Positions 32,651-55,587 of a stretch of DNA of 64,000 bases are shown piece after piece. The DNA comes from Tautonia plasticadhaerens (lineage in GTDB: Bacteria > Planctomycetota > Planctomycetia > Isosphaerales > Isosphaeraceae). A program made the translations under genes and the position numbers. A model generated the notes under the pieces. That model worked only from the letters and a program-made list of their open reading frames with translations, searched no databases and was not told where the DNA came from. How positions within the stretch are numbered: position 1 is the stretch's first letter; every line of letters begins with the position of its first letter. Location: assembly GCF_007752535.1 (NCBI RefSeq), contig NZ_CP036426.1:3968001-4032000 (forward strand), given 5' to 3'.

Positions 32651-33739
32651 TCAGCAGATCCGGGGCAGTTGCTCCCCGGAGAGCATGGACACGATGCGCT
32701 CCCCGCCTACGACCGATCGGAGCGTCACCATGCCGGGGTGCTCGGCCACCACCCGGCCGATGATCGCCGCGTCGCGCCCCAGCGGGTGCGATCGCATGGC
32801 CGCCAGCAGCGCATCGGCGTCCTCCGGCGGCGAGACGGCGAGCAGCTTCCCCTCGTTGGCGACGTCGAGCGGGTCGAGGCCGAGCATCTCGCAGGCCCCC
32901 CGGACCTCGGGGCGGACGGGGATCGACCCCTCGAGGAGCGTCACGCCCACCCGGGAGGCGGCCGCGAGCTCGTTCAGGGCGGCCGACACGCCGCCCCGCG
33001 TCGGGTCGCGCATGGCCCGGATGCCGGGGCAGGCCCCCAGCATCGCCCGGACGAGGCCGCCGAGCGGGGCGGTGTCGCTCTCCAGCGCCGTCTCGAACTC
33101 GATCCCCTCGCGCACCGACATGATGGCGATCCCGTGATCGCCGATGGTGCCGGAGACGAGGATGCGATCGCCGGGCCTCGCGTCGCGGATCGACAACGAT
33201 CGCCCCTCGGGGGCCAGGCCGACCCCGGTGGTCGTGATGTAGACCCCGTCCCCCTTGCCCCGATCCACCACCTTGGTGTCCCCGGCGACCAGGATCACGC
33301 CCGCCTCGGCGCAGGAGTCGCGCATCGAGGCGACGATCCGCCCCAGGTCGTCCAGGGCCAGGCCCTCCTCGAGGATGAACGCCGCCGCCAGGTACAGCGG
33401 CTCGGCCCCGCCGACCACCAGGTCGTTGATCGTGCCGTGGACCGCCAGCCGGCCGATGTCGCCGCCCGGGAAGAACAGCGGGCGGACCACGAAGGCGTCG
33501 GTGGAGATGGCGATCCGGGGGGCCGGGACGCCGTCCCCCCCCGGCAGGCGGACGGTCGCCTGGTCCTCCAGCGCGGCCAGCACCTCGTTGCCGAAGGCCG
33601 GCACGAAGAGGCGCCCGATCAGGTCGGCCGTCGCCCTCCCGCCGCCGCCGTGCCCGAGCAGGACCCGATCGGCATCGGCACGGGGCATCGGACAGGTCCC
33701 GAACGGCCCGGGGAGGGTCGCCTCGATCGGCTCGTCCAT
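32651..33739 (-). CDS. hypE: carbamoyl phosphate-linked maturation protein HypE
   Basis: A 362-residue protein that dehydrates the carbamoyl group to the cyanide ligand of the NiFe site. LLGHGGGGRATADLIGRLF begins the PurM-like ATP-binding domain; AISTDAFVVRPLFFPGGDIG, VHGTINDLVVGGAEPLYL and VAGDTKVVDRGKGDGVYITT follow. The chain ends in PRIC, the C-terminal Cys that is carbamoylated. The start codon shares one base with the hypD stop (TGATG), indicating coupled translation. Confidence 0.97.
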   Translation of the reverse strand: MDEPIEATLPGPFGTCPMPRADADRVLLGHGGGGRATADLIGRLFVPAFGNEVLAALEDQATVRLPGGDGVPAPRIAISTDAFVVRPLFFPGGDIGRLAVHGTINDLVVGGAEPLYLAAAFILEEGLALDDLGRIVASMRDSCAEAGVILVAGDTKVVDRGKGDGVYITTTGVGLAPEGRSLSIRDARPGDRILVSGTIGDHGIAIMSVREGIEFETALESDTAPLGGLVRAMLGACPGIRAMRDPTRGGVSAALNELAAASRVGVTLLEGSIPVRPEVRGACEMLGLDPLDVANEGKLLAVSPPEDADALLAAMRSHPLGRDAAIIGRVVAEHPGMVTLRSVVGGERIVSMLSGEQLPRIC

Positions 33740-34869
33740 CAGCGGCCCCCCCCGATCGGGACCGCGACGGGGACCCGGCCCTCCCGGTGCCGCCGGGAGT
33801 CGTGGTAGGCCGCGCACGCCCCCTCGGACGAGACCATCGTCGCCCCCAGCGGCGTCTCCGGGGTGCACTCCCGGCCGAACGCGGGGCAGTCGGGCGGCTT
33901 CCTCAAGCCCCGGAGGATCTGCCCGCTGATGCAGGCCGACGACTCCCGGGTCGCGATCGCCTCGACCTCGAACCGCCGCTCGGCGTCCTGGTCGCGATAG
34001 GCGTCGCGCAGCCGGTAGCCGCTCCGGGGGATCGGGCCGATCCCCCGCCAGGTGCGGTCGCAGACCTCGAAGACCTCCTCGATCAGCCCCCTCGCCGCGG
34101 GGTTCCCCCCGGGCCGGACGGCGCGGGCGTAGGGGTTCTCGACCCCCGCGCGGCCCGATTCGAGCTGCCGGGCCGCCCGGAGCACGCCCTCGAGCAGGTC
34201 GATCGGTTCGAAGCCGGTGATCACGATCGGCACCCGGTGGCGGCGGGCCAGCGGCTCGTATTCGGCCGTCCCCATCACGGCGCAGACGTGGCCCGGGCCC
34301 AGTACGGCCTGGACCCGGTTGCCCGGCGCCCCCAGGATCGCGGAGATCGCCGGCGGCACCAGGACGTGCGAGACGAGCACGCTGAAGTTGGCCAGCCCGC
34401 GCCGCCTCGCCATCCGGACGGCCATCGCGTTGGCCGGGGCCGTGGTCTCGAAGCCGATCGCGAAGAAGACGACCTGGCGGTCGGGGTGCGCCGCGGCGAG
34501 ATTCACGGCGTCGAGCGGCGAATAGACGACCCGGACGTCGCCGCCCTGGGCCTTGATCCGGAACAGGTCGCCGCGGGAGCCCGGCACGCGGAGCATGTCG
34601 CCGAAGGAGCAGAAGATGACCCCCGGCCTCGCGGCGATCGCGTGAGCCCGGTCGATCACCTCCAGGGCGGTGACGCAGACCGGGCAGCCGGGCCCGTGGA
34701 CCAGCTCGATCCCCGGCGGCAGGATCGCGTCGATCCCGTACCTGACGATCGAACGGGTCTGGCCGCCGCAGACCTCCATGATCACCCAGGGCCGGGTCAC
34801 GGCCCTGGAGATCGCGTCGGCCAGCTTCGCGGCGGCCGCCCCGTCGCGGTATTCGTCGAGGAACTTCAT
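33739..34869 (-). CDS. hypD: hydrogenase maturation iron-sulfur protein HypD
   Basis: A 376-residue [4Fe-4S] protein that with HypC assembles the Fe(CN)2CO unit. Seen are [93 protein letters not shown] and the C-terminal cluster residues around [20 protein letters not shown] and [20 protein letters not shown]. All family landmarks are in place. It lies 85 bp behind hypC. Confidence 0.97.
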
Positions 34870-34954
34870 GGCGAGGTGTCCCGGTCGGCCCCGGGGGGTG
34901 CGGGGGCCCTCTCGTCTCGGGGGCATGGGCGCGGGATCGTCGCCCGGCCTCCCC

Positions 34955-35245
34955 TCACGGGGCGGGGGCCGTCGGCGGGGGACGCTCGCCGGCCCTCGGG
35001 GCGCCGTCCTCGAGCTCGCCGAGCTGGTCCATCTGCTCCAGGAACTCGAAGACGCGCCTGGCCTCGTCCTCGTCGATGCGGGACAGGGCGAAGCCGACGT
35101 GGACCAGCACGTAATCCCCCGGGCGGGCGTCGGGGACGTGCTCCAGGCAGACCCGCCTGGCGACCCCAGCGAAGGAGACCTTGCCCATGAGCACGTCGTG
35201 CTCGCGGTACGTCTCGACCACCTTCCCGGGGATCCCGAGGCACAT
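34955..35245 (-). CDS. hypC: hydrogenase maturation chaperone HypC
   Basis: A 96-residue OB-fold chaperone. [20 protein letters not shown] has the essential N-terminal Cys2; [20 protein letters not shown] and [20 protein letters not shown] follow. It shuttles the Fe ligand unit from HypD to the large subunit precursor. ATG 35245 is chosen so that Cys follows Met. The last 20 residues are Pro/Ala-rich and not conserved. It starts 15 bp after the hypF stop. Confidence 0.97.
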
Positions 35246-35259
35246 CGGCAGGCCCCCGC

Positions 35260-37617
35260 TCAGGATCGGCCGGGGCCGCCCCACTCGACGGCCGGACCGG
35301 TAATCGGCCAGGCGTCCGGCCCCGGGCCGTGCGATCGATCCCGGGCCGCCCCGATCGCGAGCTGGCCCAGGCTCAGGCCGCCGTCATTCGGCGGGACCTT
35401 CCGATGACGGTAAACCCGGAACTCCTCCCGAGTCAACCGGCCGGTGATTTCGCGGGCCAGCAGGGCGTTCAGGAAGACGCCGCCGCTGAGGACGACCTTG
35501 GCCGGGCCGGACTCGCCCCTCAGGCGGAGGCAGACCTCCGCGACCATCTCCACGAGCGTCGAGTGGAACCGCCTCGCGATGACCGCCGGGGCCCGGCCTC
35601 GGCCCGCCTCGGCGGCCACCTCGGCGATCAGGGGCCGGTGGTCGATTTGCAGGGGCGCCCCCGGGGGGCCGTCCCCCTGCACCTGCTGGATTTCGAAGGG
35701 ATAGGCGGCGTCGGCGGCGACCCCCGTGGCCAGCCATTCGAGCTCCATCGCCGCCTGGCCCTCGTAGCTGACGCGCGGCCGGAGTCCGGCCAGCGCCGCC
35801 ACGGCATCGAACAGCCGCCCGACGCTCGACGTCGGCGGCGAGCGGAACCGCCGCTCGATCATCGTCCGGACGACGGCCAGCTCCGCCGGGGAGGCCCGCA
35901 GCCGGATCGCCGAGGAGCCCACCCCCGCGTCGGCCAGGTACGACGCCGCCATCCGCCAGGGTTCGAGGGTCGCCCGGTCGCCCCCTGGCATGGCGACGTA
36001 ACGCAGGTGCGCCGCCCGGCGGAAGCCCAGATAACCCCCCACCAAGATCTCGCCCCCCCAGGTCGCGCCGTCGAGCCCGTAGCCGCTGCCGTCGAACGTC
36101 ACGCCGAGGACCGGCTCGTCGAGGCCGTGCTCGGCCATGCAGCTCGCCATGTGCGCGTGGTGGTGCTGGACGGCGAGCCGCGGGAGCTCGGCCGGCCGTC
36201 CCCTGGCGTAGCCCGTCGAGGCGTAGTCGGGGTGCAGGTCGTGCACGATCAGCGCCGGGCGGATCGCCAGGAGCCGCTCGTAGTGCCCGATGGCCTCGGC
36301 GTAGGCCCGATACGCCTCGTAGCGGTCGAGGTCGCCGAGGTGATGGCTCAGGAACGCGTGGCGACCCCGGCCGAGGGCGAAGGTCGCCTTCAACTGGCCC
36401 CCCAGCGCCAGAGTCGGCCGGGGACAGGGGACGGGCAGGTCGATCGGGAGCGGCGTGGAGCCCCGGGAGCGTCGGATCGGCGACTCCGCGCCGTCGACCA
36501 CCCGAGACACCGAGTCGTCGCAGCGGAGGTGGATCGGCCGGTCGTGCGTCAGGATCAGGTCGGCGATGCCTGCCAGCCGCCTCGCCGCGTCGAGGTCGTC
36601 GTAGGCGATCGGCTCGTCGGACGGGTTGCCGCTGGTCATGACCAGGGGCGCCCCGGCCACCTCCAGCATGAGGAGGTGGTGTAGGGGCGTGTAGGGCAGC
36701 ATCACGCCGAGGCGGGGATTGCCGCCCGGCGACACCCCGACGGCGACCGGCGCCCCCGGCCTCCGGCGGAGCAGGACGATCGGCCGGCACGGCGAGGCGA
36801 GCAGCGCCCGCTCCTCCTCGTCGAATTCCCCGAGCGCCCGGGCCCACCGCAGGTCTCGCACCATGACCGCGAGCGGCTTCTCGTCCCGATGCTTGCGGCG
36901 CCGCAGCTCGGCCACCGCCCCCTCGTCGCCCGCGAGGCAGCAGAGGTGGTAGCCCCCCAGGCCCTTGACGGCGACGATCCGCCCCCTCCCCAGCGCCGAG
37001 GCCGCGTCCGAGAGCGGATCCCCCGACTCGATCGCCCGCCCGTCACCGCCCAAGAGCCGGAGCCGGGGGCCGCACGCCGGGCAGGCGATGGGCTGGGCGT
37101 GGAATCGGCGGTCGCGGGGATCCTCATATTCCGATCGGCAATCCAGGCACATGGCGAAGGCCGCCATGGTCGTGCGCTCGCGGTCGTACGGGGTCTCCCG
37201 GATGATGGTCAGCCGGGGGCCGCAGTGGGCGCAGTTGAGGAACGGATACCGATGCCGACGGTCCCGGGGATCGAATAATTCCCGGAGGCAGTCGTCGCAG
37301 GTCGCGACGTCGGGGGCGAGGAAGATCGGGCCGGCGGCGTCGCCCGCGCTCGGCTCGATCCGGAACCCGGGCTCGCCCCGGGGTGGTCGACGGGCCCAGC
37401 GCACCCCCTCGATCCGTGCCGGCGACGGGGGCCGGGACGTCAGCTCGGCCAGGAATCGGTCCAGCGACCGGGGGTCACCCTCCACCTCGATCCGGACGCC
37501 GCCGGCCCGGTTCTTCACGAAGCCGGAGAGGCCGAGGCCGGTCGCGAGTTCGTGGACGAAGGGGCGGAATCCGACCCCCTGGACGATCCCGATGATCTCG
37601 ATCGCGCGACGGTCCAT
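35260..37617 (-). CDS. hypF: carbamoyltransferase HypF
   Basis: A 785-residue four-domain enzyme that activates carbamoyl phosphate and carbamoylates HypE. Domains in order: acylphosphatase (IVQGVGFRPFVHELATGL, residues 10-28), two zinc fingers (CDDCLRELFD with NCAHCGPRLT; CLDCRSEYED with CPACGPRL, about 110-190), YrdC-like (IVAVKGLGGYHLCCLAGDE and KPLAVMVRDLR) and Kae1-like kinase/ATPase (AVQHHHAHMASCMAEHGL, GVTFDGSGYGLDGATWGGEI, VVLSGGVFLNALLA). Full length for the family. First gene of the maturation set; 190 bp separate it from the thiolase gene upstream. Confidence 0.97.
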   Translation of the reverse strand: MDRRAIEIIGIVQGVGFRPFVHELATGLGLSGFVKNRAGGVRIEVEGDPRSLDRFLAELTSRPPSPARIEGVRWARRPPRGEPGFRIEPSAGDAAGPIFLAPDVATCDDCLRELFDPRDRRHRYPFLNCAHCGPRLTIIRETPYDRERTTMAAFAMCLDCRSEYEDPRDRRFHAQPIACPACGPRLRLLGGDGRAIESGDPLSDAASALGRGRIVAVKGLGGYHLCCLAGDEGAVAELRRRKHRDEKPLAVMVRDLRWARALGEFDEEERALLASPCRPIVLLRRRPGAPVAVGVSPGGNPRLGVMLPYTPLHHLLMLEVAGAPLVMTSGNPSDEPIAYDDLDAARRLAGIADLILTHDRPIHLRCDDSVSRVVDGAESPIRRSRGSTPLPIDLPVPCPRPTLALGGQLKATFALGRGRHAFLSHHLGDLDRYEAYRAYAEAIGHYERLLAIRPALIVHDLHPDYASTGYARGRPAELPRLAVQHHHAHMASCMAEHGLDEPVLGVTFDGSGYGLDGATWGGEILVGGYLGFRRAAHLRYVAMPGGDRATLEPWRMAASYLADAGVGSSAIRLRASPAELAVVRTMIERRFRSPPTSSVGRLFDAVAALAGLRPRVSYEGQAAMELEWLATGVAADAAYPFEIQQVQGDGPPGAPLQIDHRPLIAEVAAEAGRGRAPAVIARRFHSTLVEMVAEVCLRLRGESGPAKVVLSGGVFLNALLAREITGRLTREEFRVYRHRKVPPNDGGLSLGQLAIGAARDRSHGPGPDAWPITGPAVEWGGPGRS

Positions 37618-37766
37618 GGGGGTGGGGCCTCGAGGGGGACGCATCCCCCCGCCCCGGCCGACGGGGCGGCGGCCGGGCCATGCCGGGCGGGGCCATGGCG
37701 GGGAGGTGGGGCGTCCCATCATCCCCCGCCCGGCCCCCGGAGGTCACCGTCCCGATCCCCCGGCCC

Positions 37767-37807
37767 GGCGATCACGGCGATCACGGCGATCACGGCGATC
37801 GCGGCGA
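37767..37807. repeat. tandem repeat, 9-bp unit GGCGATCAC
   Basis: Three perfect copies of GGCGATCAC followed by GGCGATCGC and the start of a fifth copy, ending at the thiolase stop codon. It lies in the 190-bp gap between the thiolase and hypF genes, which holds no gene. Confidence 0.85.
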
Positions 37808-38983
37808 TCAGGAATCGGCGCCCTTAGTGCACGCCTCGAAGACGGTCGCGACGCCCTGGCCCAGGCCGACGCAGAGCGTCGCCAGGCCGAACATGGCCCC
37901 CTCGCCGCGCATCCGATGCAGGAGCGTGGTCGCGATGCGGGCCCCGCTCGCGCCGAGGGGATGGCCCAGGGCGATCGCCCCGCCCCGGAGGTTCACGCGC
38001 CGCTCGTCGATGCCGAGCGACTGCAACACGGCGAGCACCTGGACGGCGAACGCCTCGTTCACCTCGATGCAGCCGACCTGCCCCAGGGCGAGGCCGGCCC
38101 TCGCCAGCGCCTTGCCGACGGCCGGGACCGGGCCGATGCCCATCTCCTCCGGCTCGACGCCGGCGACCGCCATGGAACGGATCCGGGCCATCGGCTCCAG
38201 GCCGAGTTCGGCCGCCTTCTCCTCCGACATGACCAGCAGGGCGGCCGCCCCCACGCTGACCTGGGAGCTGTTCCCCGCCGTCACCGTGCCGCCGTCGGGG
38301 TGGAAGGCGGGTGGGAGGGCCGCCAGGGACTCGGGCGAGGTGTCGCGGCGGATCCCCTGGTCCTCGGCGAGCAGGGACTTCCTGCCGGCCTCGTCGCGCC
38401 CCCAGGTCGGGACGACCTCGCCGAGGAACGCCCCGCCGTCGGTCGCCTCGGCGGAGAGGAGGTGGCTCCTCAGGGCGAAGGCGTCCTGCCGTGCCCGGGA
38501 AATGTGGTACTTCGCCGCCAGGTATTCGGCCGTCAGGCCCATGTGCATGATCGCCTCGCTGTGGCGGCGGAAGAGGCTCGGGCAGGGGTCGTAGCCGCGG
38601 TCCATCGGCACGTGGCCCATGTGCTCGACCCCGCCGACGACCTGGACGTCCTCGCAGCCGGCGGCGATGCTCATGGCGGCGTCGTTGATCGCCTGGAGGC
38701 CCGAGGCGCAGTTGCGGTTGACCGTCACCCCCCCCGCCTCGACCGGCAGGTCGGCCGCGAGCGCGGCGATCCGGGCGATGTCGAACCCCTGCTCACCCTG
38801 CTGCTGGACGCATCCCCATCGGACGTCCTCGACGAGTCGGGGGTCGATCCCCGTCCGGTCGACCAGCGCCCGGATGACGTGGGCCGAGAGGTCCTCGGCA
38901 CGGACGTCCCGGTAGCATCCCCGATCCGCCGACGCCCGCCCGACGGGGGTGCGCACGGCGTCGATCACCACGGCTCGTCTCAT
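37808..38983 (-). CDS. fadA: thiolase (acetyl-CoA C-acyltransferase)
   Basis: A 391-residue thiolase that cleaves 3-ketoacyl-CoA to acetyl-CoA and a shortened acyl-CoA, the last step of beta-oxidation. VTVNRNCASGLQAINDAAMS holds the nucleophile Cys; CIEVNEAFAVQVLAVLQSLG, GGAIALGHPLGASGARIATT (His) and ATLCVGLGQGVATVFE (second Cys) are the other active-site blocks. Its start lies 4 bp after the stop of the fused hydratase/dehydrogenase, so the two form the usual trifunctional pair. A biosynthetic thiolase is possible but less likely in this setting. Confidence 0.93.
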   Translation of the reverse strand: MRRAVVIDAVRTPVGRASADRGCYRDVRAEDLSAHVIRALVDRTGIDPRLVEDVRWGCVQQQGEQGFDIARIAALAADLPVEAGGVTVNRNCASGLQAINDAAMSIAAGCEDVQVVGGVEHMGHVPMDRGYDPCPSLFRRHSEAIMHMGLTAEYLAAKYHISRARQDAFALRSHLLSAEATDGGAFLGEVVPTWGRDEAGRKSLLAEDQGIRRDTSPESLAALPPAFHPDGGTVTAGNSSQVSVGAAALLVMSEEKAAELGLEPMARIRSMAVAGVEPEEMGIGPVPAVGKALARAGLALGQVGCIEVNEAFAVQVLAVLQSLGIDERRVNLRGGAIALGHPLGASGARIATTLLHRMRGEGAMFGLATLCVGLGQGVATVFEACTKGADS

Positions 38984-38987
38984 CGGT

Positions 38988-41150
38988 TCACCCCTCCGGC
39001 GACGCGGCCATCTCGGCCCTGGGATAGAACGACCCGCCGCTCGATGCCAGGAGCGAGAGCGATCCGGTCGGCTCGAACCGGGCCCCCAGGTCGCGGTACG
39101 GCTCCAACTGGTCGAGGACCCCGGCCGCGCCCTCGGCGTCGGCCCACCGGAGCAGCCCCCCCCGGAACGGGGGGAAGCCGACGCCGAGGATCAATCCCAG
39201 GTCGACCTCCGACGGCTCCCGGACGACCCCCTCCTCCAGGACACGGGTCGCTTCCAGGAGCATGGGCAGGAACAGGCGATCGGAGATCTCCTTGTCGGTC
39301 GGCGGGCGATCGCCGATCCGGCGGCGTTCCAGCAGGGCGAGGGCGGCGGGGTCGGCCGCCGGCTTGCCCTCCCGGGCGTGCGATCGGAACCCCGCGCCCG
39401 CCTTCTCGCCCAGGCGGCCGGCGGCGACGAGATCCCCGATGATGGGGGTCGGGGCCGCCCGGTCGGGGAAGGCGGCGGCCAGGACCGCTCCCGCCCCGGC
39501 GACCGTGTCGAGGCCGATGAAGTCGGCCAGGGCGATCGGCCCCATCGGCATCCCGAACCGCTCGGCCGCCGCGTCGACCCGGTCCATCGGGGCCCCCTCC
39601 TGCACCAGCCGGAACGCCTCGTTGAGGTACGGGAAGAGGACCCGGTTGATCAGGAAGCCGGGGGCGTCGCGCACGACGATCGGCGTCTTCCGGAGCCGCC
39701 TGGCCAGCGCGACGACCGTCGTCACGGCCTCCTCGCCGGTCCGATCGCCCCGGACGACCTCGACCAGCTCCATCCGGTCGACCGGGTGGAAGAAGTGCAG
39801 GCCGACGAACCGCTCGGGGTCCGGGGCCGAGGCGGCCATCCGGGAGATCGAGATCGTCGAGGTGTTGCTGGCCAGGATCGCGTCGTCGCGCAATTCGCCG
39901 CCGATCTCCCGGAACAGGGCCGTCTTGGCCGCCTCGTCCTCGGTGATCGCCTCGACGACCACGTCGCAATCGGCGAAAATCCGGGGGGACGTGGACGTGC
40001 TCAATCGACCGAGCATCTCGGCCAGGTCCTCGGGCGAGGCGCGGCCGATCTTGATCCGGCTGGCGACGACGCCCCGGGCCTTCGCCAGGCCGGCGGCGAG
40101 CCGGGATTCGTCGAGGTCGACCATCGCCGCCCGGAGGCCGGACCGGGCGGCCGCCGTGGCGATCCCGGCCCCCATCTGGCCGGCCCCCGCGACGCCGACA
40201 CGCCGCACCGGCCGGGCCACGGCCCCGGGGGCGGCCGCGACCGGGTCGCGATCGAGGCGGTGTTTCATGAAGTAGACGGCGATCAGGTTCGCCGAGGTGG
40301 GCGACCCGATCAGCCCCAGGGCCGCCTCCCGCTCGACCGCGAGCCCTCCCTCCAGGGGGCGATTGCACCCGTCCCGAATCGCGCCGAGCGCGGCCAGCGG
40401 GGCGGGATATCGGCCGCGGGTCCTGGCCCGGATCGCCCCTTCCGCGACGGTGACGGCGAAGCGAAGCTGGTCGTCGCCGAGGCCGAGCGGCCCCCGGAGC
40501 CGCCGCCGTCGCTCGGGCCAATCGCCGACGCCCTGGAGGTGCTCGACGAGGCGGACGCCCTCCTCCACCAGCCGGTCGCTCGGGACCGCGTCGAAGGCGA
40601 GTCCCAGCGCCGCCGCCTGCTCGGCGGCGACGACGGTCGAGGAGCAAATCATGTCGATTGCGTGATGAATGCCGATCAGCCGGGGGAGCCGCTGGGTGCC
40701 CCCCCAGGCCGGCAGCAGCCCGAGCGAGACCTCGGGCAGTCCGATCCTCGTCCCGGGCGACGCGGAGGCGATGCGGTCGTCCATCGCCAGGATCAGCTCG
40801 GTCCCGCCTCCCATGCAATTGCCGTCGATCAGCGCCACCGTCGGGAAGGGCAGCCGGGCGATCCGGTCGAGGAGCCGGTGGCCGAAGTCGATCACCTCGG
40901 CCACCCGGTCGCCCGTGGCCGAGGCGAGGGCGGCCAGCTCCTTGAGGTCGGCGCCGGCGATGAACTGGCCGGGCTTGCCGCTCCGGAAGAGCAGCCCGCG
41001 GAGGTCGGACCGACCTTCCAGGTGCTCGACGAGCCCGGCGAGCTCCAGGAGCGCCGCCCGGCCCAGCGTGTTGACCTTCTTGCCCGGCAGGTCGAACGTC
41101 AGCAGGGCGATCGACCCGTCGACCTGATCCAGTCGGAATGCGTTTCCCAT
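38988..41150 (-). CDS. fadJ: enoyl-CoA hydratase / 3-hydroxyacyl-CoA dehydrogenase fusion
   Basis: A 720-residue bifunctional beta-oxidation enzyme from ATG 41150. The crotonase half (1-190) has GQFIAGADLKELAALA, VALIDGNCMGGGTELILAMD (oxyanion hole) and IGLPEVSLGLLPAWGGTQRL (catalytic Glu). The NAD-binding half starts about residue 318 with RRVGVAGAGQMGAGIATAAA, then AILASNTSTISISRMA, GLHFFHPVDRMELVEVVRGD, and the two C-terminal 3HCDH domains. FadB and FadJ cannot be told apart by eye; the symbol is by architecture only. It starts 2 bp after the acyl-CoA dehydrogenase stop. Confidence 0.93.
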   Translation of the reverse strand: MGNAFRLDQVDGSIALLTFDLPGKKVNTLGRAALLELAGLVEHLEGRSDLRGLLFRSGKPGQFIAGADLKELAALASATGDRVAEVIDFGHRLLDRIARLPFPTVALIDGNCMGGGTELILAMDDRIASASPGTRIGLPEVSLGLLPAWGGTQRLPRLIGIHHAIDMICSSTVVAAEQAAALGLAFDAVPSDRLVEEGVRLVEHLQGVGDWPERRRRLRGPLGLGDDQLRFAVTVAEGAIRARTRGRYPAPLAALGAIRDGCNRPLEGGLAVEREAALGLIGSPTSANLIAVYFMKHRLDRDPVAAAPGAVARPVRRVGVAGAGQMGAGIATAAARSGLRAAMVDLDESRLAAGLAKARGVVASRIKIGRASPEDLAEMLGRLSTSTSPRIFADCDVVVEAITEDEAAKTALFREIGGELRDDAILASNTSTISISRMAASAPDPERFVGLHFFHPVDRMELVEVVRGDRTGEEAVTTVVALARRLRKTPIVVRDAPGFLINRVLFPYLNEAFRLVQEGAPMDRVDAAAERFGMPMGPIALADFIGLDTVAGAGAVLAAAFPDRAAPTPIIGDLVAAGRLGEKAGAGFRSHAREGKPAADPAALALLERRRIGDRPPTDKEISDRLFLPMLLEATRVLEEGVVREPSEVDLGLILGVGFPPFRGGLLRWADAEGAAGVLDQLEPYRDLGARFEPTGSLSLLASSGGSFYPRAEMAASPEG

Positions 41151-41152
41151 GA

Positions 41153-43114
41153 TCACTCCGAGGCTGAGGGTGCCGGGCCCCCGGTCGGCCGGGTGCCGCC
41201 GTCCTGCGGGTAGGGCATGCGGATCTCGTCCGCCTCGATGCCGTCGAGGGGCGCGTAGCCGCCTCGGGCGATCGCCTCGCCCAGCGTCGTGACGGCCCGA
41301 TAGTCGTCGTCGCTCGGGCGGCGGCCGGTGTGGGCCCGCCTGAGTTCGCGGCAGAGCACGTCGGCCGCCGCCCGGACGAGCACGTCCTGCTGCCTCCCCG
41401 CCCAGAGGCTCGTGGCGAGGATCACCACCAGGCCCTGGACGCGACGCGACAGCTCCGCCATGCGGCACTGGCGGTCGGCCAGCCGGAGCTGGTGCCGGGC
41501 CATCGTCGCGCTGATCTCGAGGCGACTCCGGTGCAGCTCGTCCAGGGCGAACCGGGCGTGGGCGGCCAGGTTCGCCGGGAGGTCGGGGAGCGCCGTGCGG
41601 CGGCGGCGTCCGAGGTGCTGGCCGGCCCACCAGCCCGCGTAGGGGGCCAGGGCCCGTCGCATGGCCCAGGCGTGGGCCGGGTTCATCGGGTCCGGTGAGC
41701 GGATGCCGGCCTCCCGGACGGCCCGCCCGATGGGTTCGAAATAGGCCTTGCCGTGCTCCTTGATCAGCGACTTGAAGAAGGCGAGGCCGAGCATCTCCCC
41801 CTCGCCCTCGTAGATGCAGGGGGCGAGGTAGTCGTGGACGTTCTCGCCGAACCGGTGGCCGCGCAGGAAGGCCCGGCCGCCGTGGGTCTTCATGTCGAGC
41901 TCGATGGCGGCGTCCTTCTGGGCCTCGCTGCCGAAGATCTTGGCGACGATGCATTCCATCTCGCCGCGATATCCCTCGTCGAGCAGGCGGGCGCACCAGT
42001 CCACCAGCGCGTCGCAGCCGGCGATCAGGGCCGCCAACCGGCCGATCCGGCGGCGGACCAGCTCCCGGCCGGCGATCGGCTCGCCGTAGGTCCGGCGGAA
42101 TCGCGCCCAGGGAACGAGGTCGGCCAGCATCTTGCGCATCGTGCCGGCGGCGGTGGCGCAGAGGGCCACCCGGCCGCGGTTCAGGCCGTGGTAGGCGATC
42201 GTCAGGCCGTCCCCCCGGGTCGGCCGGAGCAGGTTCTCCCCGGGGACCCGGAACGCGCGGAAGCGCAGGCCGTTATTGTGGGCCTGCCGGAGGGCGAAGA
42301 TGCCGTACCGGACCAGTTGGAAATGCTCGTCCTCGCGGTCGGGCAGGTCGGCGATCATGACCGCCGGGCGGTCGTCGATCCGGCAGACGAGCCCGATCGT
42401 CCGCCCGGGGACCGCGTTGGTGATGAATAGCTTCTCGCCGTCGACGACGTAGTCGTCTCCGTCGGGCTCGGCCCGGGTCCGCAGCGCGGTGAGATCCGAG
42501 CCGGCGCCGGGCTCGGTCAGGGCGAACCCCGAGAGCCGGTCGCCCCGCGCCAGGGGGGGGAGGAGTCGTCGCCGCTGTTCGGGCGTGCCGAAGGCCCGGA
42601 GCGGGTCGACCGCCCCGATGCAGCCGTGGACCGAGGCCAGGCCGGCGATCATCGGCTCGAGGGTGCTCATGCGCGTCAAGAACCGGGCAAACGCGGCGAA
42701 CGGCGCCCCGGTGCCGCCGTACTCGGGATCGATCAGCAGGCCCCAGTAGCCGACGGCGGCGAGGTCGTCCAATACGGCCCCGGCGATCTTCCCGTCCGGC
42801 CCCAGCAGGGTGCCGCCGCCCTTGTGGCGGCGGACCACCTCCAGCGATCGGTCCATCACCCGTTCGCATCGGGGCGACGCCCCCGGCTCCCCGGGGAGGA
42901 ACAGGTCGATCGGCACGCCCCGATCCCAGACGACCCGGTGGATCGGGCTGTCGGCCGTGCGGTGGCCGGGCTCGAAGAGATCCTCGACCTGATCGTCGGC
43001 CCGGTCGATCGAGGCCGTCGATCGCGCCTCCTGGTCGCTCTTCCCGCCGAGCCGCAACGCCGATTCGACGAAGTTCGGGGCGTCGGGCCCGCTCTGCTCG
43101 GTCTCGGTCTTCAT
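41153..43114 (-). CDS. acyl-CoA dehydrogenase with C-terminal helical extension
   Basis: A 653-residue flavoprotein for the first step of beta-oxidation. LIDPEYGGTGAPFAAFARFL, LSGFALTEPGAGSDLTALRT and LFITNAVPGRTIGLVCRI are the N-terminal and beta-domain FAD/substrate blocks; AYHGLNRGRVALCATAAGTM, YGEPIAGRELVRRRIGRLAA, DMKTHGGRAFLRGHRFGENV and APCIYEGEGEMLGLAFFKS (region of the catalytic Glu) complete the fold by about residue 470. A further 180 helical residues follow, as in ACAD9/VLCAD-type enzymes of long chains, which bind membranes. It is first of the three tightly packed beta-oxidation genes. Confidence 0.92.
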   Translation of the reverse strand: MKTETEQSGPDAPNFVESALRLGGKSDQEARSTASIDRADDQVEDLFEPGHRTADSPIHRVVWDRGVPIDLFLPGEPGASPRCERVMDRSLEVVRRHKGGGTLLGPDGKIAGAVLDDLAAVGYWGLLIDPEYGGTGAPFAAFARFLTRMSTLEPMIAGLASVHGCIGAVDPLRAFGTPEQRRRLLPPLARGDRLSGFALTEPGAGSDLTALRTRAEPDGDDYVVDGEKLFITNAVPGRTIGLVCRIDDRPAVMIADLPDREDEHFQLVRYGIFALRQAHNNGLRFRAFRVPGENLLRPTRGDGLTIAYHGLNRGRVALCATAAGTMRKMLADLVPWARFRRTYGEPIAGRELVRRRIGRLAALIAGCDALVDWCARLLDEGYRGEMECIVAKIFGSEAQKDAAIELDMKTHGGRAFLRGHRFGENVHDYLAPCIYEGEGEMLGLAFFKSLIKEHGKAYFEPIGRAVREAGIRSPDPMNPAHAWAMRRALAPYAGWWAGQHLGRRRRTALPDLPANLAAHARFALDELHRSRLEISATMARHQLRLADRQCRMAELSRRVQGLVVILATSLWAGRQQDVLVRAAADVLCRELRRAHTGRRPSDDDYRAVTTLGEAIARGGYAPLDGIEADEIRMPYPQDGGTRPTGGPAPSASE

Positions 43115-44887: not shown

Positions 44888-45382
44888 TCACGGCCGATGA
44901 CGCCGGGCTGACGGCGCGAGTCCCTCGGCGTCGAGGAGCCCGTCGATCCGTCCCAGGGCCTCGCGGAGCCCGGACGCCGCCGCCGGGGAGAGCCCCTCGC
45001 CTGTCGAGAGGTCGGTGGCCGGGACGGTGACCAGCCAGGCCCTCGGGGACGTGCCGAAGACCTCCCTGGCGAGCGCGAGCAGCCTCCGGGGGTCCCCCAT
45101 GTGGCCGATCGGCAACGGGGATTCCGACGGGCGGATCGGGACGACCCGGATGCCGGCCCGGCCGTCGGCGAGCCGGGCGTCGACGAAGATCGCGACTCGG
45201 GCCGACGCGACCTGCTCGGCGAGTTCCGGGAGCAACTGGTGCGACGAGACGGCGACCACGCCCGGGACGCCCCGACGGGCGACCTCCTCGGCCGCCATCG
45301 GGCCGACGGCGTCGTCCCGCCGGAGGCGGTTGCCATAGCCGACGACGAGGATCGGGCCGGTCGCCGACGAAGGGGTCGCCAT
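44888..45382 (-). CDS. hoxW: hydrogenase large-subunit maturation protease HoxW
   Basis: A 164-residue endopeptidase that trims the HoxH C-terminus after nickel is in place. ILVVGYGNRLRRDDAVGPMA contains the family GxGNxLxxDD motif, whose Asp probes the Ni; VAIFVDARLADGRAGI carries the second acidic ligand and GHMGDPRRLLALA the His. Length is as expected for the HycI/HoxW peptidases (family M52). Its start shares one base region with the hoxH stop at 45382, so the substrate and its protease are translated together. Confidence 0.93.
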   Translation of the reverse strand: MATPSSATGPILVVGYGNRLRRDDAVGPMAAEEVARRGVPGVVAVSSHQLLPELAEQVASARVAIFVDARLADGRAGIRVVPIRPSESPLPIGHMGDPRRLLALAREVFGTSPRAWLVTVPATDLSTGEGLSPAAASGLREALGRIDGLLDAEGLAPSARRHRP

Positions 45383-46806
45383 CAGTCTCGCCTCGCCTCG
45401 TCGAGGATCGAACCGTCCGGGCCGACGAGCCGGACGACCATCGGCATCTGGCCGAGGGCGTGGGTCGAGCAGCTGAGGCAGGGGTCGAAGGCGCGGATTC
45501 CCGCCTCCAGGCGGTTGAGCACCCCCTCGGGGATCGCCGGGCCCGAGATGTAGCGCCGGGCGATCTGGGCCACCGTCGCGTTCATCGCCAGGTTGTTCTG
45601 GCCGGTGGCGATGATCAGGTTCACCGACCGGACCAGGCCGTCCTCGTCCACCTCGTAGTGGTGGAACAGCGTCCCCCGCGGGGCCTCGCCCACGCCCACG
45701 CCCCCCGGGGCGTTGATGCCCGCCTCGGCCCTGAGGCGGCCGGCGCCGAGCCCGGGGTCGTCGATCAGCCGCTCGATGAGTTCGACGCCCGCCATGATTT
45801 CGATGAGCCGGGCATAGTGGTACCAGAACGACGACGAGACGATCCGGCCCCCTCGCTGTCGGTACTCGACCAGTTCCGCGTCGGCCAGGGGCGTGCCCAT
45901 GCGCTCGCAGAGGTTCAGCCGGGCGAGCGGCCCCACGCGGTACATGCCGCCGGGATGCCCCAGGGGCCGGAAGTAGGGCGATTTCAGGTACGAATCGGGC
46001 TGCACCGCCTCGCCGATGAACTCCCGATACGCCCCGGCCTCGAATCCGTCGACCAGGACGGCCCCGTCGGCGTCGAGGACGCGGACCCGGCCGCCGTAAT
46101 GTTCCCAGGCCCCGTCGGCGGCGACCAGGCCGAGGTACAGCGTGGGGAAATTCCCGAACGATGCCGTCTCATCCGAGAACGTGTCGATCAAACCCTTCAT
46201 CCGGTCCAGCGCGTATCGGGCGGCCTCCTTCGCCTCGGGGAGCCTCGCCTTGATGTGCGCCCGCCCTTCGGACGACAGGGCGGAGCGGACCCCGCCGGGC
46301 ACGCACCAGGAGGGATGGATCCGCTTCCCGCCGAGCAGCTCGATGATCTCCTGGCCGAACTGCCGCAGGCGGATGCCCCGCAGCGCGGCCTCCCGGTCGG
46401 CGACCGCCAAGCCGAGGAGGTTCCGACGCGACGGGTCGGCGTCGAAGCCGAGCAGGAGGTCGGGCCCGCTCAGGTGGAAGAAGCTCAGGGCGTGCGACTG
46501 CACGATCTGGGCGAGGTTCATGAGCCTTCGCAATTGCTCGGCCGCGGGGGGGACGGTGGCGGCGAGGATCGCGTCCCCCGCCCTGGCCGAGGCGATGAGG
46601 TGGCTCACCGGGCAGATCCCGCAGATCCGGGCCGTCAGCCCGGGCATCTCCCAGAGCGGCCTCCCCTCGCAGAATTTCTCGAAGCCCCGGAACTCGCCGA
46701 CGTGGAACCGGGCGTCGGCGACCGAATGGTCATCGTTCAGGTGGATGCTGATCTTGGCGTGGCCCTCGATCCGGGTCACCGGGTCGATCAGGATTCGCTC
46801 GCCCAT
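45382..46806 (-). CDS. hoxH: NAD-linked [NiFe]-hydrogenase large subunit HoxH
   Basis: A 474-residue catalytic subunit of the group 3d bidirectional hydrogenase. [14 protein letters not shown] opens the family; [14 protein letters not shown] is the N-terminal CxxC pair and [13 protein letters not shown] the C-terminal pair, together binding Ni and Fe. After the His of the second motif about 22 residues remain ([20 protein letters not shown] and EARRD), the peptide expected to be removed by HoxW. It interconverts H2 with protons and electrons that pass via HoxY to the diaphorase. ATG 46806 lies inside the end of hoxY. Confidence 0.97.
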
Positions 46807-47440
46807 CGTCCCTCCCCTTCCTCGTCGGGCGATCGCGTGACGGCCACTCCGGCCTGGTCGGGCCGCCGTCGAGTTCGAGCGACCGCCGGCCGTAGCCGCC
46901 GAAGTGGAGGCCAAGCGTCCCCGGGTCGACCGGTTCCCCGGCGATCACCTTCTCCAGCACCGCCCGGATCGTCGGCCCCGAGGGCGGGCAACCCGGCAGG
47001 AACAGGTCGACGTCGACCACCGCGTGCACCGGCACGACCCGGTCGAGGAGCGTCGGCACGAGGTCGGGGTCCGACGGGATCGGTCCCGGCGGGTCGCAGT
47101 TCTCCAGGTAGGATCGCCCCAGCACCGCCGACGCCCCCCCCAGGACGTTCCGGATCGCCGACACGTTCCCCGTGACGGCACAGTCGCCGAGGGCGACGAC
47201 CAGGCGGGTCCGACGCCGGATCGTCCGGATCAGCGCCAGGTGCTCCGCGTTGCAGACGGCCCCCTCGACCAGCACGAGGTCGACCCCCTCGGGATACACC
47301 TTGGTGTCGACCAGCGGGGGCGAGAAGACCAGGTCGGCGAGGTCGGCCAGATCCAGCAGGAATTCGTCCATGTCGAGGAATGACATGTGACACCCCGAGC
47401 AGCCGCCGAGCCAGGCCGTCGCCAGCCTCAGACGCCCCAT
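46730..47440 (-). CDS. hoxY: hydrogenase small subunit HoxY
   Basis: A 236-residue protein with the proximal [4Fe-4S] ligands: [40 protein letters not shown] and [20 protein letters not shown]. It relays electrons between the NiFe site and HoxU. Family members are mostly 170-210 residues; here a basic, low-complexity tail ([20 protein letters not shown]) runs 77 bp into hoxH in another frame. Such a long overlap is unusual: the tail may be real, or a stop codon may have been lost. ATG 47440 overlaps the end of hoxU by 13 bp. Confidence 0.95.
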
Positions 47441-48138
47441 CGCCCCTCCTCCCGGGCCGTGACCAGGTCGTGCAGCCTCTCGCGGTCGTGGATATTCTCG
47501 GCGACCGACGACCCCCGGTGGAACAGGGCGCCGGTCGGGCAGGCCATCACGCACTTGCCGCAGGAGGTGCAGGTGCCCGACTCCCCCCACGGCTGGTGCA
47601 GGTCCGTGATGACCCGGGACCTCGTCCCGCGCCCGGCGACGTCCCAGGTGTGGGCCCCCTCGATCTCGTCACAGACCCGGACGCATCGGGTGCAGAGGAT
47701 GCAGCGGTTGTGGTCCAGGCCGTAGCGGTCGTGCGAGGCATCCACCTCGCAGGGCGGGTCGAGGTACTCGTAGCGGACGTGGTCCACCCCCAGCTCCATC
47801 GCCAGGTCCTGCAACTCGCAATCGCCGTTGGCCACGCAGACCGAACAGACGTGGTTCCGCTCGGCGAACAGCAGCTCCAGGATCATCCGGCGGTACTCCC
47901 GGAGGCGGTCGGTGGCCGTGCTGACCTCCATCCCCTCGGCGGCCCGGGTGACGCACGAGGGCACCAGGCGGCCGTCCACCTCCACCAGGCAGAGGCGGCA
48001 GGCGCCGACGGGGGTCAGTCCGTCGAGGTCGCAGAGCGTCGGGATCCGGACCCCGGCATCCCGGGCCGCATGGAGGATGGTCTGCCCCTCCCGGGCACTG
48101 ATCAACGCGCCGTCGAGCGTCAGGGTCGTGACGGCCAT
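47428..48138 (-). CDS. hoxU: diaphorase/hydrogenase bridging subunit HoxU
   Basis: A 236-residue iron-sulfur protein equivalent to the N-terminal part of complex I NuoG. Clusters in order: [2Fe-2S] from [20 protein letters not shown] with a later Cys, the His-Cys3 [4Fe-4S] in [14 protein letters not shown], and two further [4Fe-4S] in [16 protein letters not shown] and [16 protein letters not shown]. It carries electrons between HoxF and HoxY. Four bp separate it from the upstream hoxF. Confidence 0.96.
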
Positions 48139-48142
48139 GGGG

Positions 48143-49780
48143 TCACCTCGGGGTCGGTGCCCGGGCCCCGTCGCCATCCGGGCTGACGAGGCGAGACTCG
48201 TATTCGTGACGGAAGAACCGCAAGGTACTGAGCACCGGGTTCGGCGCCGCCTGGCCGAGCCCGCAGAGGCTGGCGTGCTTGACCAGGTCGCAGAGCGCCT
48301 CCAGCCGCCCCAGCTCCCCGGCCGGGGCGACCCCGCGTTCGATCCGGTCGAGCATCCGGTAGAGCTGCACGGTCCCGGCCCGGCAGGGGACGCACTTGCC
48401 GCACGACTCGTCCATGCAGAATTTCATGAAGAAGCGGGCGATGCCCACCATGTCGTCGTCCTGGTCCATCACGATCATGCCGCCGGAGCCCATGATCGAG
48501 CCGAGGGCCTTGAGCGCCTCGTATTCGACCGGCGTGTCGAACAACCCGCTCGGGATGCAGCCGCCCGAAGGCCCCCCGGTCTGCACCGCCTTCGTCGTCG
48601 ACCCCTCGGGCGCACCCCCGCCGATCTGATCGACGATCGTCCGCAGCGGGAGGCCCATCGGCACCTCGACGAGCCCCGAGTTCCTCACCTTCCCCGCCAG
48701 GGCGAAGACCTTCGTCCCCTTGCTCCCCTCGGTCCCGATGGCGGAGAACCAATCGCTCCCCTCCCGGATGATGGCGGGGATGTTGGCGAACGTCTCGACG
48801 TTATTGATCAAGGTCGGGCACCCCCAGAGGCCCGACTCGGCCGGGTACGGCGGCCGGGGGCGGGGCTGGCCGCGACGGCCCTCGATGGACTGCATCAGCG
48901 CCGTCTCCTCGCCGCAGACGAAGGCGCCGGCACCGATCCTCAGGTCGACCCGGAAGTTGAACGGCGAGTCGAAGATCATGCTCCCCAGCAGGCCGAGCCG
49001 CCGGGCCTGGCGGATCGCCGTGTCGAGCCGGGCGATGGCGAGGGGGTACTCCCCCCGGACGTAGATGTAGCCCCGGTCGGCGCCCACGGCGAGGGCGGCG
49101 ATCGCCATCCCTTCCAGCACCCGGTGCGGGTCGCTCTCCATGACGCTCCGGTCCATGAAGGCGCCGGGGTCCCCCTCGTCGGCGTTGCAGACGACATACT
49201 TCGGCCCCGGCGGCATCTTGGCGACGGTCGCCCACTTCAAGCCCGTCGGGTAGCCGGCGCCTCCCCGACCCCGGAGCCCGCTGCGGGTGACCTCGGCGAT
49301 CATCCCCTCGGGCCCCAGTTCGTGCAAGGCGTGGTGCAGCGAGCGGTAGGCCCCGGCGGCGAGGGACGACTCGATCCGCTCGGGCTCGACGACGCCGGTG
49401 TTCTCCAGCACGATCGGTCGCTGCAGGGCGAAGAACGGCGAGCCAAGGTCGACGAGACGGATGCCTTCCGCCGGGTCACCAGATGCGGCCGACGCGATCA
49501 CCGGGGCCAGTCGCGCGTCGACCTTCGCATAGAGAGCCGGGTCGGCCCCCTCCGAGTCGACCTGGACGAGCGGCCCCTCGCTGCAGAGCCTCAGGCAGCC
49601 GACCTCCCGGAGCCGGACCCGGCCGGCCAGGCCCCGGTCGGCGATGGCCCCCGCGATCGCGTCCCGGACGCCCCCGGCCCCCGAGCCGAGGCAGCTCGCG
49701 GCGAGGCAGACCCTCACCTCGACGGGGAGCCGGCCGGCTCGCTCCGATTCGGCCAGTGCGATCAGTTCCTCAAGGTCCAT
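48143..49780 (-). CDS. hoxF: NADH-binding diaphorase subunit HoxF
   Basis: A 545-residue FMN and NAD-binding subunit, the NuoF counterpart. The N-terminal thioredoxin-like [2Fe-2S] domain has [10 protein letters not shown] and [15 protein letters not shown]. The SLBB/FMN part shows [18 protein letters not shown] (NADH loop), [20 protein letters not shown] (FMN) and [19 protein letters not shown]. The C-terminal [4Fe-4S] is in [13 protein letters not shown] with a distal Cys. It oxidises NADH or reduces NAD+, so the complex can both make and consume H2. ATG 49780 overlaps hoxE by 11 bp. Confidence 0.97.
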
Positions 49781-50303
49781 GGCCCACCCATCCCTTCAGG
49801 CGATCGGCGACCTCCTCGGCCGAGACGTGGCCCGCCACCTCCCCGTCGAATACAACGAGCGGCGCCAGGCCGCAGGAGCCGATGCAGCGGGCCGTCTCCA
49901 GGGTGATCCGGCCGTCCGGCGTCGTCTCGCCCGCCCGGGCCCCGGCCGACTGCTCGGCGACCGCCAGCACCCGCTCCGCCCCCTTCACGTAGCAGGCGGT
50001 GCCGGTGCAGACGGTGCACGTGTGATCGCCCCGGGGGGTCAGCCGGAAGAGGTGGTAGAACGTCGCCACGCCGTAGACCCGGCTCGGCGGCAGCCCCAGT
50101 CCCCGGGAGACGTAGCGGAGCACGTCGTCATCGAGGACGCCGAAGACCTGCTGCGACCGGTGCAGGACCTCGATCAGCGAATCCTGCCGGAACCGCTGCC
50201 GCTTCAGCTCCTCGTCGACGAGGCGGAAGCGCCCGTCTCCGCCCGGGTGCCCGGTCTCGGCCGAGCAGGCCGGCCTCGTCTGCCGCCGGACCGGCTTGTC
50301 CAC
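49770..50303 (-). CDS. hoxE: hydrogenase diaphorase subunit HoxE
   Basis: A 177-residue NuoE-like [2Fe-2S] protein: LRYVSRGLGLPPSRVYGVAT, FYHLFRLTPRGDHTCTVCTG, TACYVKGAERVL and ARCIGSCGLAPLVVFDGEV supply the four Cys. Presence of HoxE as a separate subunit marks the five-subunit HoxEFUYH type known from cyanobacteria and some other phyla, in contrast to four-subunit soluble hydrogenases. It starts 30 bp after the dihydroorotate dehydrogenase-like gene, so read-through from nifJ is likely. Confidence 0.95.
   Translation of the reverse strand: MDKPVRRQTRPACSAETGHPGGDGRFRLVDEELKRQRFRQDSLIEVLHRSQQVFGVLDDDVLRYVSRGLGLPPSRVYGVATFYHLFRLTPRGDHTCTVCTGTACYVKGAERVLAVAEQSAGARAGETTPDGRITLETARCIGSCGLAPLVVFDGEVAGHVSAEEVADRLKGWVGHGP

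Positions 50304-51343: not shown

Positions 51344-51347
<4 letters not shown>
50334..51347 (-). CDS. dihydroorotate dehydrogenase-like protein
   Basis: A 337-residue TIM-barrel flavoprotein: RYLGLDLAHPVVVSACSLGF, AVVLPSLFEEQIVHDQMAVH, VIGSLNGTSSGGWIRYAKLI, DAGADALELNVYRVV, IPVAVKIGPYFSALPNLAVR and GVHTHEDVLKLLLAGADVTM (phosphate-binding). It resembles DHOD and the PreA part of dihydropyrimidine dehydrogenase, but this subgroup regularly follows pyruvate:ferredoxin oxidoreductase genes and its reaction is not established. The N-terminus overlaps the nifJ stop by 4 bp. A ferredoxin-linked oxidoreductase role is inference from the context. Confidence 0.85.
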
Positions 51348-54928
<3,581 letters not shown>

Positions 54929-55064: not shown

Positions 55065-55104
55065 AAAAAAACCCCGCGCAAGCGATCGTGATCGCCTGCC
55101 GGGG
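55065..55104 (-). terminator. strong intrinsic terminator upstream of nifJ
   Basis: On the minus strand CCCCGGCAGGCGATC pairs with GATCGCTTGCGCGGGG (one G-U pair, one bulged G) around a 2-base AC loop and is followed at once by seven T. It lies 137 bp before the nifJ start and is the only classic hairpin-plus-T-run in the window. Confidence 0.8.
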
Positions 55105-55151
55105 CTCCCTTAGCCGGGTTATCGCCACCTCTCGTAAGTGACGACGTTACA
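55065..55151 (-). ncRNA. candidate structured leader RNA upstream of nifJ
   Basis: Between a predicted promoter (55158-55186) and a T7 tract, the minus strand encodes about 87 nt with three helices. P1 is GUCGUCAC with GUGGCGAU around UUACGAGAG; P2 is GGCU-AAGGG-AGCC; P3 is the terminator stem. The 3' side of P2 can extend with CCGG and so compete with the terminator's CCCCG arm, which is the logic of an attenuator. I compared it by eye with the SAM, c-di-GMP, cobalamin, glycine, ZTP, fluoride and guanidine consensus cores and saw no convincing match. It could be a riboswitch, attenuator or free small RNA. Confidence 0.5.
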
Positions 55152-55157
55152 TCTGGA

Positions 55158-55186
55158 AGTCTAGCGGCTCCGACGCCGGCATGCAA
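55158..55186 (-). promoter_or_regulatory. predicted sigma70-type promoter of the nifJ leader
   Basis: TTGCAT (55181-55186) and TAGACT (55158-55163) lie exactly 17 bases apart on the minus strand. Start of transcription would be near 55151. The -35 match is only moderate; spacing and the following RNA structure support it. Confidence 0.5.
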
Positions 55187-55587
55187 GCGGACCCTCGACT
55201 CCAATTTCCTCCCCGGCGGCCGATCGGAGGGGATCGAGGCGGTCGTCCATCCCGGCCCCCGTCCCGGACGGTACGGGAATGGCCGGCATCCCCGGCCGGG
55301 ACGCCTCGATTGGTGGGTCTCCCCTAAGGCGGCTTTCCCCGATCCAGCGTCGGAATCGAGGCTGACGGAGAAGTCGCCCGCCTCCCGGAATCGCTCGCAC
55401 AAGGCCCCGCGCAGGGGGGGCGCCGCCGGCCGGATCGTCGGCGATGCCGGACCCGGTCGGTGGGGACCCCTCGCCCCGGCGGGGGAAGCTTGATGACCGG
55501 GGCTCGCCGATGTGGTACGGACCTTCCCTGCGAACTCGGCCGCATCCGGCCCGACTCCCCGGCCCGTCCTCCCTTCGGGAGCCCTCG

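Follow-up and report, generated by a model that had tools for sequence, protein, structure and literature searches.

The leader that precedes nifJ in Tautonia plasticadhaerens is most probably a cis-acting antiterminator (probability roughly 0.83, judged from sequence), at which one kind of REC-ANTAR protein, here called clade II, would on phosphorylation let RNA polymerase into the nifJ and hydrogenase genes, as part of an oxygen-linked relay. The sequence evidence points to a conserved RNA structure, to exclusion between the P2 hairpin and the terminator in predicted folds, to many copies of the element, to co-occurrence and linkage with clade II, and to an operon whose layout fits.

Results

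The leader and the genes behind it

A preliminary description of the window (the whole stretch of 64,000 nucleotides that was analysed) had placed on its minus strand a 17-bp spaced -35/-10 pair, helices and a hairpin followed by T7, and had read them as an attenuator ahead of a PFOR/hydrogenase cluster. All of these parts were located (Table 1), and the sequence evidence given below lends support to the attenuator. The base of the terminator and the 3' arm of P2 are the same letters, and the GTG of nifJ, at 54928, lies 137 positions from the last T of T7. The 88-nt transcript folds into P1 and the terminator at -44.1 kcal/mol (z -5.1, matched by none of 200 shuffles), whereas a longer 181-nt stretch is unremarkable (z -1.47; 18 of 200 shuffles as good); for the leaders of eight relatives, z ranges from -1.3 to -5.8. 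The promoter hexamers are weak alone, matching the consensus at 3/6 and 4/6 positions by our count, and a consensus scan of the sequence listed neither this promoter nor its terminator. Taken alone, the nifJ leader is unusual to a moderate degree only; its promoter and terminator are raised above chance because they are conserved in relatives. Among the 69 distinct elements described below, 32 have a -35/-10 pair matching at least 9/12 upstream, compared with 3.1% of letter shuffles. Beside the element, a divergent ORF (55444-56565, plus strand) has no Pfam match.

Four of the 15 window ORFs scanned gave no Pfam match at E<=1e-5, and the nearest named relative of the PFOR among the matches listed comes from a Planctomycetales MAG (69% identity). 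PFOR, the hydrogenase and an acetyl-CoA hydrolase encoded elsewhere in the genome would together plausibly ferment pyruvate to acetate and hydrogen.

Table 1. Positions of the leader parts, of the genes behind the leader and of related features elsewhere in the genome (G000).
Feature	Position	Strand	Basis or remark
Promoter	55158..55186	-	-35 TTGCAT 55186-55181, 17-nt spacer, -10 TAGACT 55163-55158; layout recurs in L039-L041
P1 hairpin, 10 pairs, loop ACGAG (55135-55131)	55121..55145	-	folding and covariation
P2 hairpin GGCT-AAGGG-AGCC, proposed antiterminator	55103..55115	-	alignment and folds
Intrinsic terminator stem-loop	55072..55106	-	folding and covariation (helices 2 and 3)
U-tract T7	55065..55071	-	read from sequence
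nifJ, pyruvate:ferredoxin (flavodoxin) oxidoreductase, first gene after leader	51344..54928	-	name from preliminary description and homology
Bidirectional-hydrogenase-like gene block	45382..50303	-	domain scan
2Fe-2S thioredoxin-like	49770-50303	-	domain scan
Nuo51/HoxF-like	48143-49780	-	domain scan
NADH-G/HoxU-like	47428-48177	-	domain scan
NiFe hydrogenase large subunit	45382-46914	-	domain scan
Acyl-CoA dehydrogenase, thiolase and hyp block, putatively same cluster	33739..43114	-	domain scan
Acyl-CoA dehydrogenase	41153-43114	-	domain scan
Thiolase	37808-38983	-	domain scan
HypF	35260-37722	-	domain scan
HypC	34955-35284	-	domain scan
HypD	33739-34926	-	domain scan
Clade II REC-ANTAR	G000:C1:5838909-5839490		last gene of four-gene operon
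Second strong copy of element	G000:C1:4870314-4870401 (L184:4315-4402)		ahead of acetyl-CoA hydrolase/transferase gene
Third copy of element	G000:C2:64694-64780 (L185:4695-4781)		contig 2, 278 kb; ahead of 1067-aa FG-GAP/Ig-like protein gene

An RNA family across genomes

The leader had not been matched to any known riboswitch class at the outset, and this was borne out in the stretches searched: at the gathering threshold Rfam gave no family in the window or in ten other loci, and at E<=10 a search of 721 bases returned CyVA-1 alone, at 14.2 bits against a threshold of 41.4, which was of no use. With blastn, the element found itself alone at low E in its own genome, with no second copy, and short stem-like pieces outside it; the element family is visible through synteny and covariance only. 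Three genomes of the same genus, with nifJ orthologues of 83-86% identity, have the whole orthologous leader in the same layout, and the leader also stands ahead of nifJ in G014, which belongs to another genus, and in four genomes of genus g14; the terminator of G016 is weak. When the nine leaders were aligned with MAFFT, pairs of P1 were seen to flip from G-C to C-G, and the C-G and U-G atop P1 were invariant.

A covariance model built from these nine nifJ leaders (R1) found many further copies across family f1, and a second model (R2) was made from 72 aligned copies, 69 of them distinct sequences; the E-values of both models are rough. At E<=1e-4, R2 placed elements in 32 of the 45 f1 genomes, with 42 copies in G017 (the highest number), 29 in G031 and 3 in the genome studied here. 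In the 69 distinct elements 93.0% of cells are paired (77.0% in shuffles), and the covariation score is 0.496 (0.191 in shuffles) and collapses when the partner is slid, these covariation figures being inflated both by the fitting of the alignment to the model and by the relatedness of its rows. P1 of the nine-sequence MAFFT alignment is the same as P1 of the fitted 69-element alignment, and judged from these alignments P1 covaries strongly. A lack of covariation or of conservation in relatives had been named beforehand as speaking against the leader; both were seen. Outside f1, R2 at E<=1e-3 found elements in 16 of 203 sampled genomes from other families of the class, and a search of the phylum, whose filters miss weak matches, gave elements in 5 of 392 genomes, every one of them from the same class. 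By these searches the element is part of a large family of RNAs for which Rfam gave no match.

Also inspected were 80 PFOR loci of various phyla, drawn from the matches listed, the terminator scan covering those in which the PFOR start motif was found. On ten of these loci R1 gave no strong match, the best being 14.0 bits (L076), and overlapping hairpins at L075, L087, L099 and L101 were rejected, being by eye without the P1 and P2 loops. A genome of family f4 has, close ahead of PFOR, a related leader with promoter, P2 and terminator (L068:1337-1451), which scores weakly with the models (19.5 and 20.3 bits) and has the P2 loop AUGGA; the same genome has a clade-II-like ANTAR gene (232 bits). 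In three genomes without clade II, the nifJ leaders (L044, L045, L051) retain a promoter-like pair and some of P1, and the terminator is poor or missing.

Competition between P2 and the terminator

That P2 might form at the expense of the terminator had been proposed from the single leader, and the folds of 69 leaders agree with it. When the leaders are cut at the end of P2, P2 is complete in the MFE fold of 54/69, whereas in full leaders any P2 pair is present in the MFE fold of 2/69; P2 and the terminator are mutually exclusive in folds. P2 is paired in 94.9% of cells and nearly invariant within f1, and since it hardly varies there, covariation within the family tells little. Outside f1, a hairpin of at least three pairs with a five-base loop and G at the third place was found in 14 of 22 matches; about ten of these look P2-like and the rest accidental, and some of the stems change on both sides (GGCG/CGCC, GAGCT/AGCTC, GACT/AGTC). 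The spacing between the modelled P1 and P2 is 2 to 8 letters, and 6 in 46 of the 69 elements.

Copies of the element and the genes that they precede

Forty-eight copies in 20 stretches, chosen for strong or clustered matches, were examined for what follows them, which bears on whether the element might be the gene of a free small RNA, with its own promoter and terminator, lying ahead of nifJ by chance and acting in trans. Termination would in any case yield a product of about 88 nt, the copies looked at are framed by a promoter-like pair and a terminator, and for some (L192, for example) the stronger downstream ORF is on the opposite strand; yet a same-strand, codon-biased ORF of at least 60 aa starts within 1.5 kb of 46 of the 48 copies, and within 150 nt of 35 of them, by a criterion that is lax and without a control. 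Both copies without such an ORF are near the end of the fetched stretch. P2, moreover, has been kept in competition with the terminator, for which a plain small RNA would have no need, and we regard a free small RNA as extremely improbable.

A Pfam scan was made of 30 downstream ORFs, which do not represent all 48 copies and are not always the first ORF. Recurrent among them were Hsp20 (3), PPDK/PEP synthase (2), protoglobin kinase (2) and sigma factors (2); found once each were Usp, HPr, BON, FBPase, PRPP synthetase, FtsH, Band 7, M50-CBS, cytochrome c, cNMP-binding, tRNA editing, erythromycin esterase, FG-GAP, PAS kinase, pyruvate:ferredoxin oxidoreductase with 4Fe-4S, and acetyl-CoA hydrolase; 5 of the 30 had no Pfam match. 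Judged by these domains, the content of the putative regulon fits low oxygen and stress. The link to PFOR and hydrogenase drawn in the preliminary description thus holds in that the leader precedes nifJ, but the element is multi-copy and not specific to PFOR. In the genome studied here, a weak fourth copy (28.1 bits) separates the ANTAR operon from a divergent ORF that has no Pfam match and is followed by a Usp gene. Divergent back-to-back pairs of elements, facing apart, were seen at L189:5543-5833, L195:5460-5778, L194:5206-5559 and L337:300-554.

Elements track one clade of REC-ANTAR proteins

ANTAR domains gave 78 matches in 40 of the 45 f1 genomes, which divide into 38 of clade I and 40 of clade II; 65 were assigned by a tree, with 100/100 support for the split and a warning about long branches (chiefly G013), and the other 13 by their highest BLAST score. 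Clade II is present in 30 of the 32 f1 genomes with elements and in none of the 13 without (Fisher 1.4e-9, a value inflated by ignoring relatedness). The same holds within genera: in g7, G009 has both the element and clade II and G026 and G035 have neither; in g14, G030, G062, G064 and G065 have both and G063 neither. The exceptions are G016, with one element and no clade II, and G012, a draft that is 81% complete, with 13 elements and a clade I ANTAR alone found. Among the R1 matches listed, an element is found no more than 12 kb from 11 ANTAR genes, all of them of clade II (11/40).

Could another RNA-binding protein, or a REC-ANTAR of clade I, act on the leader instead? Clade I, the second REC-ANTAR clade, occurs in many f1 genomes, the present one included (G000:C1:1860568-1860729; L212). 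However, it is also present in 8 of the 13 f1 genomes without elements, and none of its 38 genes has an element among the R1 matches listed at a distance of 12 kb or less; the co-occurrence scan covered ANTAR proteins and the protoglobin kinase. We consider this explanation unlikely.

An ANTAR match is present in every genome with elements, the 32 of f1 as well as the 16 outside it. Outside f1, an ANTAR protein scoring at least 145 bits against the clade II protein of our genome was found in 40 of 203 genomes, including all 16 with an element, the cut-off having been set after the clade I maximum of 138.3 bits was seen, with G169 borderline at 145.4; in the other 24 of the 40 no element was found by a search whose filters lose weak matches. 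In 20 ANTAR neighbourhoods from 18 non-f1 genomes (13 already known to hold an element and 5 not), an element was found in 15 at E<=0.05 and in 11 at E<=1e-4, and among the five genomes without a prior element G090 alone gave one. At three of the non-f1 loci (L337, L339, L340) the element stands directly ahead of the protoglobin kinase gene.

The state of the nifJ leader itself was compared with the presence of clade II. The terminator is intact in eight clade II genomes (G000, G001, G002, G003, G014, G062, G064, G065) and poor or missing in G016, G026 and G035, the three f1 genomes that have nifJ and lack clade II; the leaders of G005 and G006 have no clean terminator despite clade II. The decay of nifJ leaders without clade II supports the antiterminator model weakly.

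These distributions also bear on a riboswitch, in which P1 and P2 would bind a small molecule signalling low energy or low oxygen and the co-occurrence with ANTAR would be a by-product of a shared regulon. Small tandem-hairpin riboswitches, too, show short conserved loops and overlap with a terminator, which the element fits, and the lack of an Rfam match excludes no undescribed class. On the other hand, the elements follow a single ANTAR clade, also within g7 and g14, with linkage recurring in other families; the loops of P1 and P2 share a consensus, as expected if one protein meets each of them; and no larger conserved core was seen. A riboswitch is in our judgement very unlikely. The preliminary description had left three choices, a new riboswitch class, a protein-controlled attenuator or a free small RNA, of which the second is favoured here, with a clade of REC-ANTAR response regulators as the candidate protein.

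A putative protoglobin kinase relay

The clade II gene of the present genome closes an operon of four overlapping genes, which by Pfam encode protoglobin-HisKA-HATPase, REC-REC, REC-PAS-HisKA-HATPase and REC-ANTAR; this order is shared by other genomes, but not by every one. The protoglobin kinase matches the globin domain of AfGcHK (5ohe) with an E-value of 2.4e-21. Across f1, 29 places carry a protoglobin kinase (nearly whole at 27, the globin part only at two), spread over 25 of the 45 genomes; all 25 genomes have clade II, and at 20 of the 29 places a clade II gene is no more than 5 kb away. A protoglobin domain was also present in 8 of the 20 non-f1 ANTAR neighbourhoods. No protoglobin kinase was found in G020, G032, G062, G064 and G065, which have clade II and elements; their sensor may differ, or, in G020 and G032, may be missing from incomplete drafts.

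In domain layout the operon is of the Nmp type, with a protoglobin kinase, a double receiver and a receiver-kinase hybrid. It resembles the NmpRSTU system of Myxococcus xanthus, and AfGcHK, in encoding these three together, and NmpRSTU also in a regulon with Usp and CBS-domain proteins and in an operon under its own control, as far as the available parts of PMC11841059 and PMC6211767 describe them. In Myxococcus, the proposal is that NmpS can phosphorylate NmpR, a sigma54 regulator, when oxygen is low (PMC11841059, available part). Whereas the output there is NmpR, which is NtrC-like, the fourth gene here, looking at the operon alone, is a REC-ANTAR. Homologues of nmpSTU in Planctomycetes are mentioned in PMC6211767, the available part of which describes no RNA output for them. 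Oxygen as the signal is suggested by analogy with the Nmp layout.

Loops and residues compared with canonical ANTAR targets

According to the available part of PMC3369931, ANTAR proteins bind hairpins that come in tandem, the second of them overlapping a terminator; in the canonical case each loop is a hexaloop carrying A1 and G4, and the genes under such targets are, following Ramesh et al., mostly nitrogen genes. The element has two tandem stem-loops, a short linker and a P2 that overlaps and excludes an intrinsic terminator. It is thus like the targets of EutV (eut), NasR (nasF) and AmiR (amiE) in having two small hairpins with the second overlapping the terminator base, and like the dual hexaloop antiterminators in the conserved G of each loop, a candidate REC-ANTAR partner and several leaders per genome (available parts of PMC3369931, PMC8934654 and PMC8164766). 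Unlike the hexaloops of those sources, its loops are best drawn with five bases, RYGAN in P1 and ANGRY or AYGAA in P2, with a pyrimidine at A1, and low-oxygen, fermentation and stress genes take the place of mostly nitrogen genes.

The loop G is kept in 69/69 (P1) and 68/69 (P2) elements. Counted from the pyrimidine, G4 is found in 69/69 (P1) and 68/69 (P2), and position 1 is C or U in 69/69 and 63/69; counted from the purine, P2 has A1 in 64/69 and G4 in 40/69, and P1 has A1 in 30/69 and G4 in 7/69. The loops are thus not hexaloops with A1 and G4, and the RNA is therefore not filed as a proven member of the ANTAR targets. Three other candidates were dropped: guanidine-II-like loop kissing and a CsrA site, as the loop bases vary, and a leader peptide, as no conserved start codon was seen by eye in a few leaders.

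For the whole clade II protein of our genome, the closest solved structures are EutV (6wsh, 6ww6) and the Rv1626 type (1s8n, 1sd5), with E-values of 1.9e-31 and 8.2e-33. In EutV, G4 stacks on Tyr164, A1 is uncontacted, and Met172 is a plug that is essential for RNA binding; these roles are from the available part of PMC8934654, the structure-chain numbering is two higher, and the offset fits all residues. At the places of EutV Tyr164, Arg168, Arg175 and Arg177, the 40 clade II proteins have Phe in 37 (Tyr in 3), Gln in 34, Asn in 40 and Lys in 40, respectively. At the Met172 place 34 of them have Ser and 6 have Arg, and 37 of 38 clade I proteins have Gln, so a residue other than Met is no peculiarity of clade II. 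Our hypothesis is that the changed residue at this place goes with the changed loop.

Discussion

We infer binding, the direction of the switch, phosphorylation, dimerisation and the oxygen signal as follows. Polymerase would start at the promoter and make P1, then P2. With nothing bound, the terminator would take the 3' arm of P2, and transcription would end at the U-tract. Once phosphorylated, the clade II REC-ANTAR would dimerise, hold the loops of P1 and P2 and keep P2 formed, so that polymerase would pass into the nifJ and hydrogenase genes. By analogy with NmpU/NmpT/NmpS of Myxococcus, the relay would be on at low oxygen.

A broader reading, which we hold to be reasonably probable, is that the element is an ANTAR RNA whose two loops, each RYGAN-like and of five bases, are read by a REC-ANTAR clade of its own, one with a changed residue at the place of the EutV loop-plug Met; it would serve as the output of an Nmp-like oxygen relay and, through antitermination, control a regulon for low oxygen and stress. 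This regulon would comprise as many as about 40 leaders in a genome and take in the two arms of the fermentation of pyruvate to acetate plus hydrogen.

In the open literature, supplements and subscription papers being outside the scope of the search, no paper was found that joins protoglobin with an ANTAR domain, or an ANTAR domain with planctomycetes, and planctomycetes are unmentioned in the main text of PMC3369931 and PMC8164766. As far as the available part of PMC3369931 goes, nitrogen use is what ANTAR control has mostly been linked to so far; in the present case such control would act genome-wide as a switch linked to oxygen. If the proposed mechanism is true, antitermination would be an output for the planctomycete nmpSTU homologues mentioned in the available part of PMC6211767. 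The changed loop, together with the changed Met172 place of EutV, would make it possible to test directly how an ANTAR protein gauges the size of a loop. For the bacteria themselves, the antiterminator model, if true, would predict when they ferment and make hydrogen.
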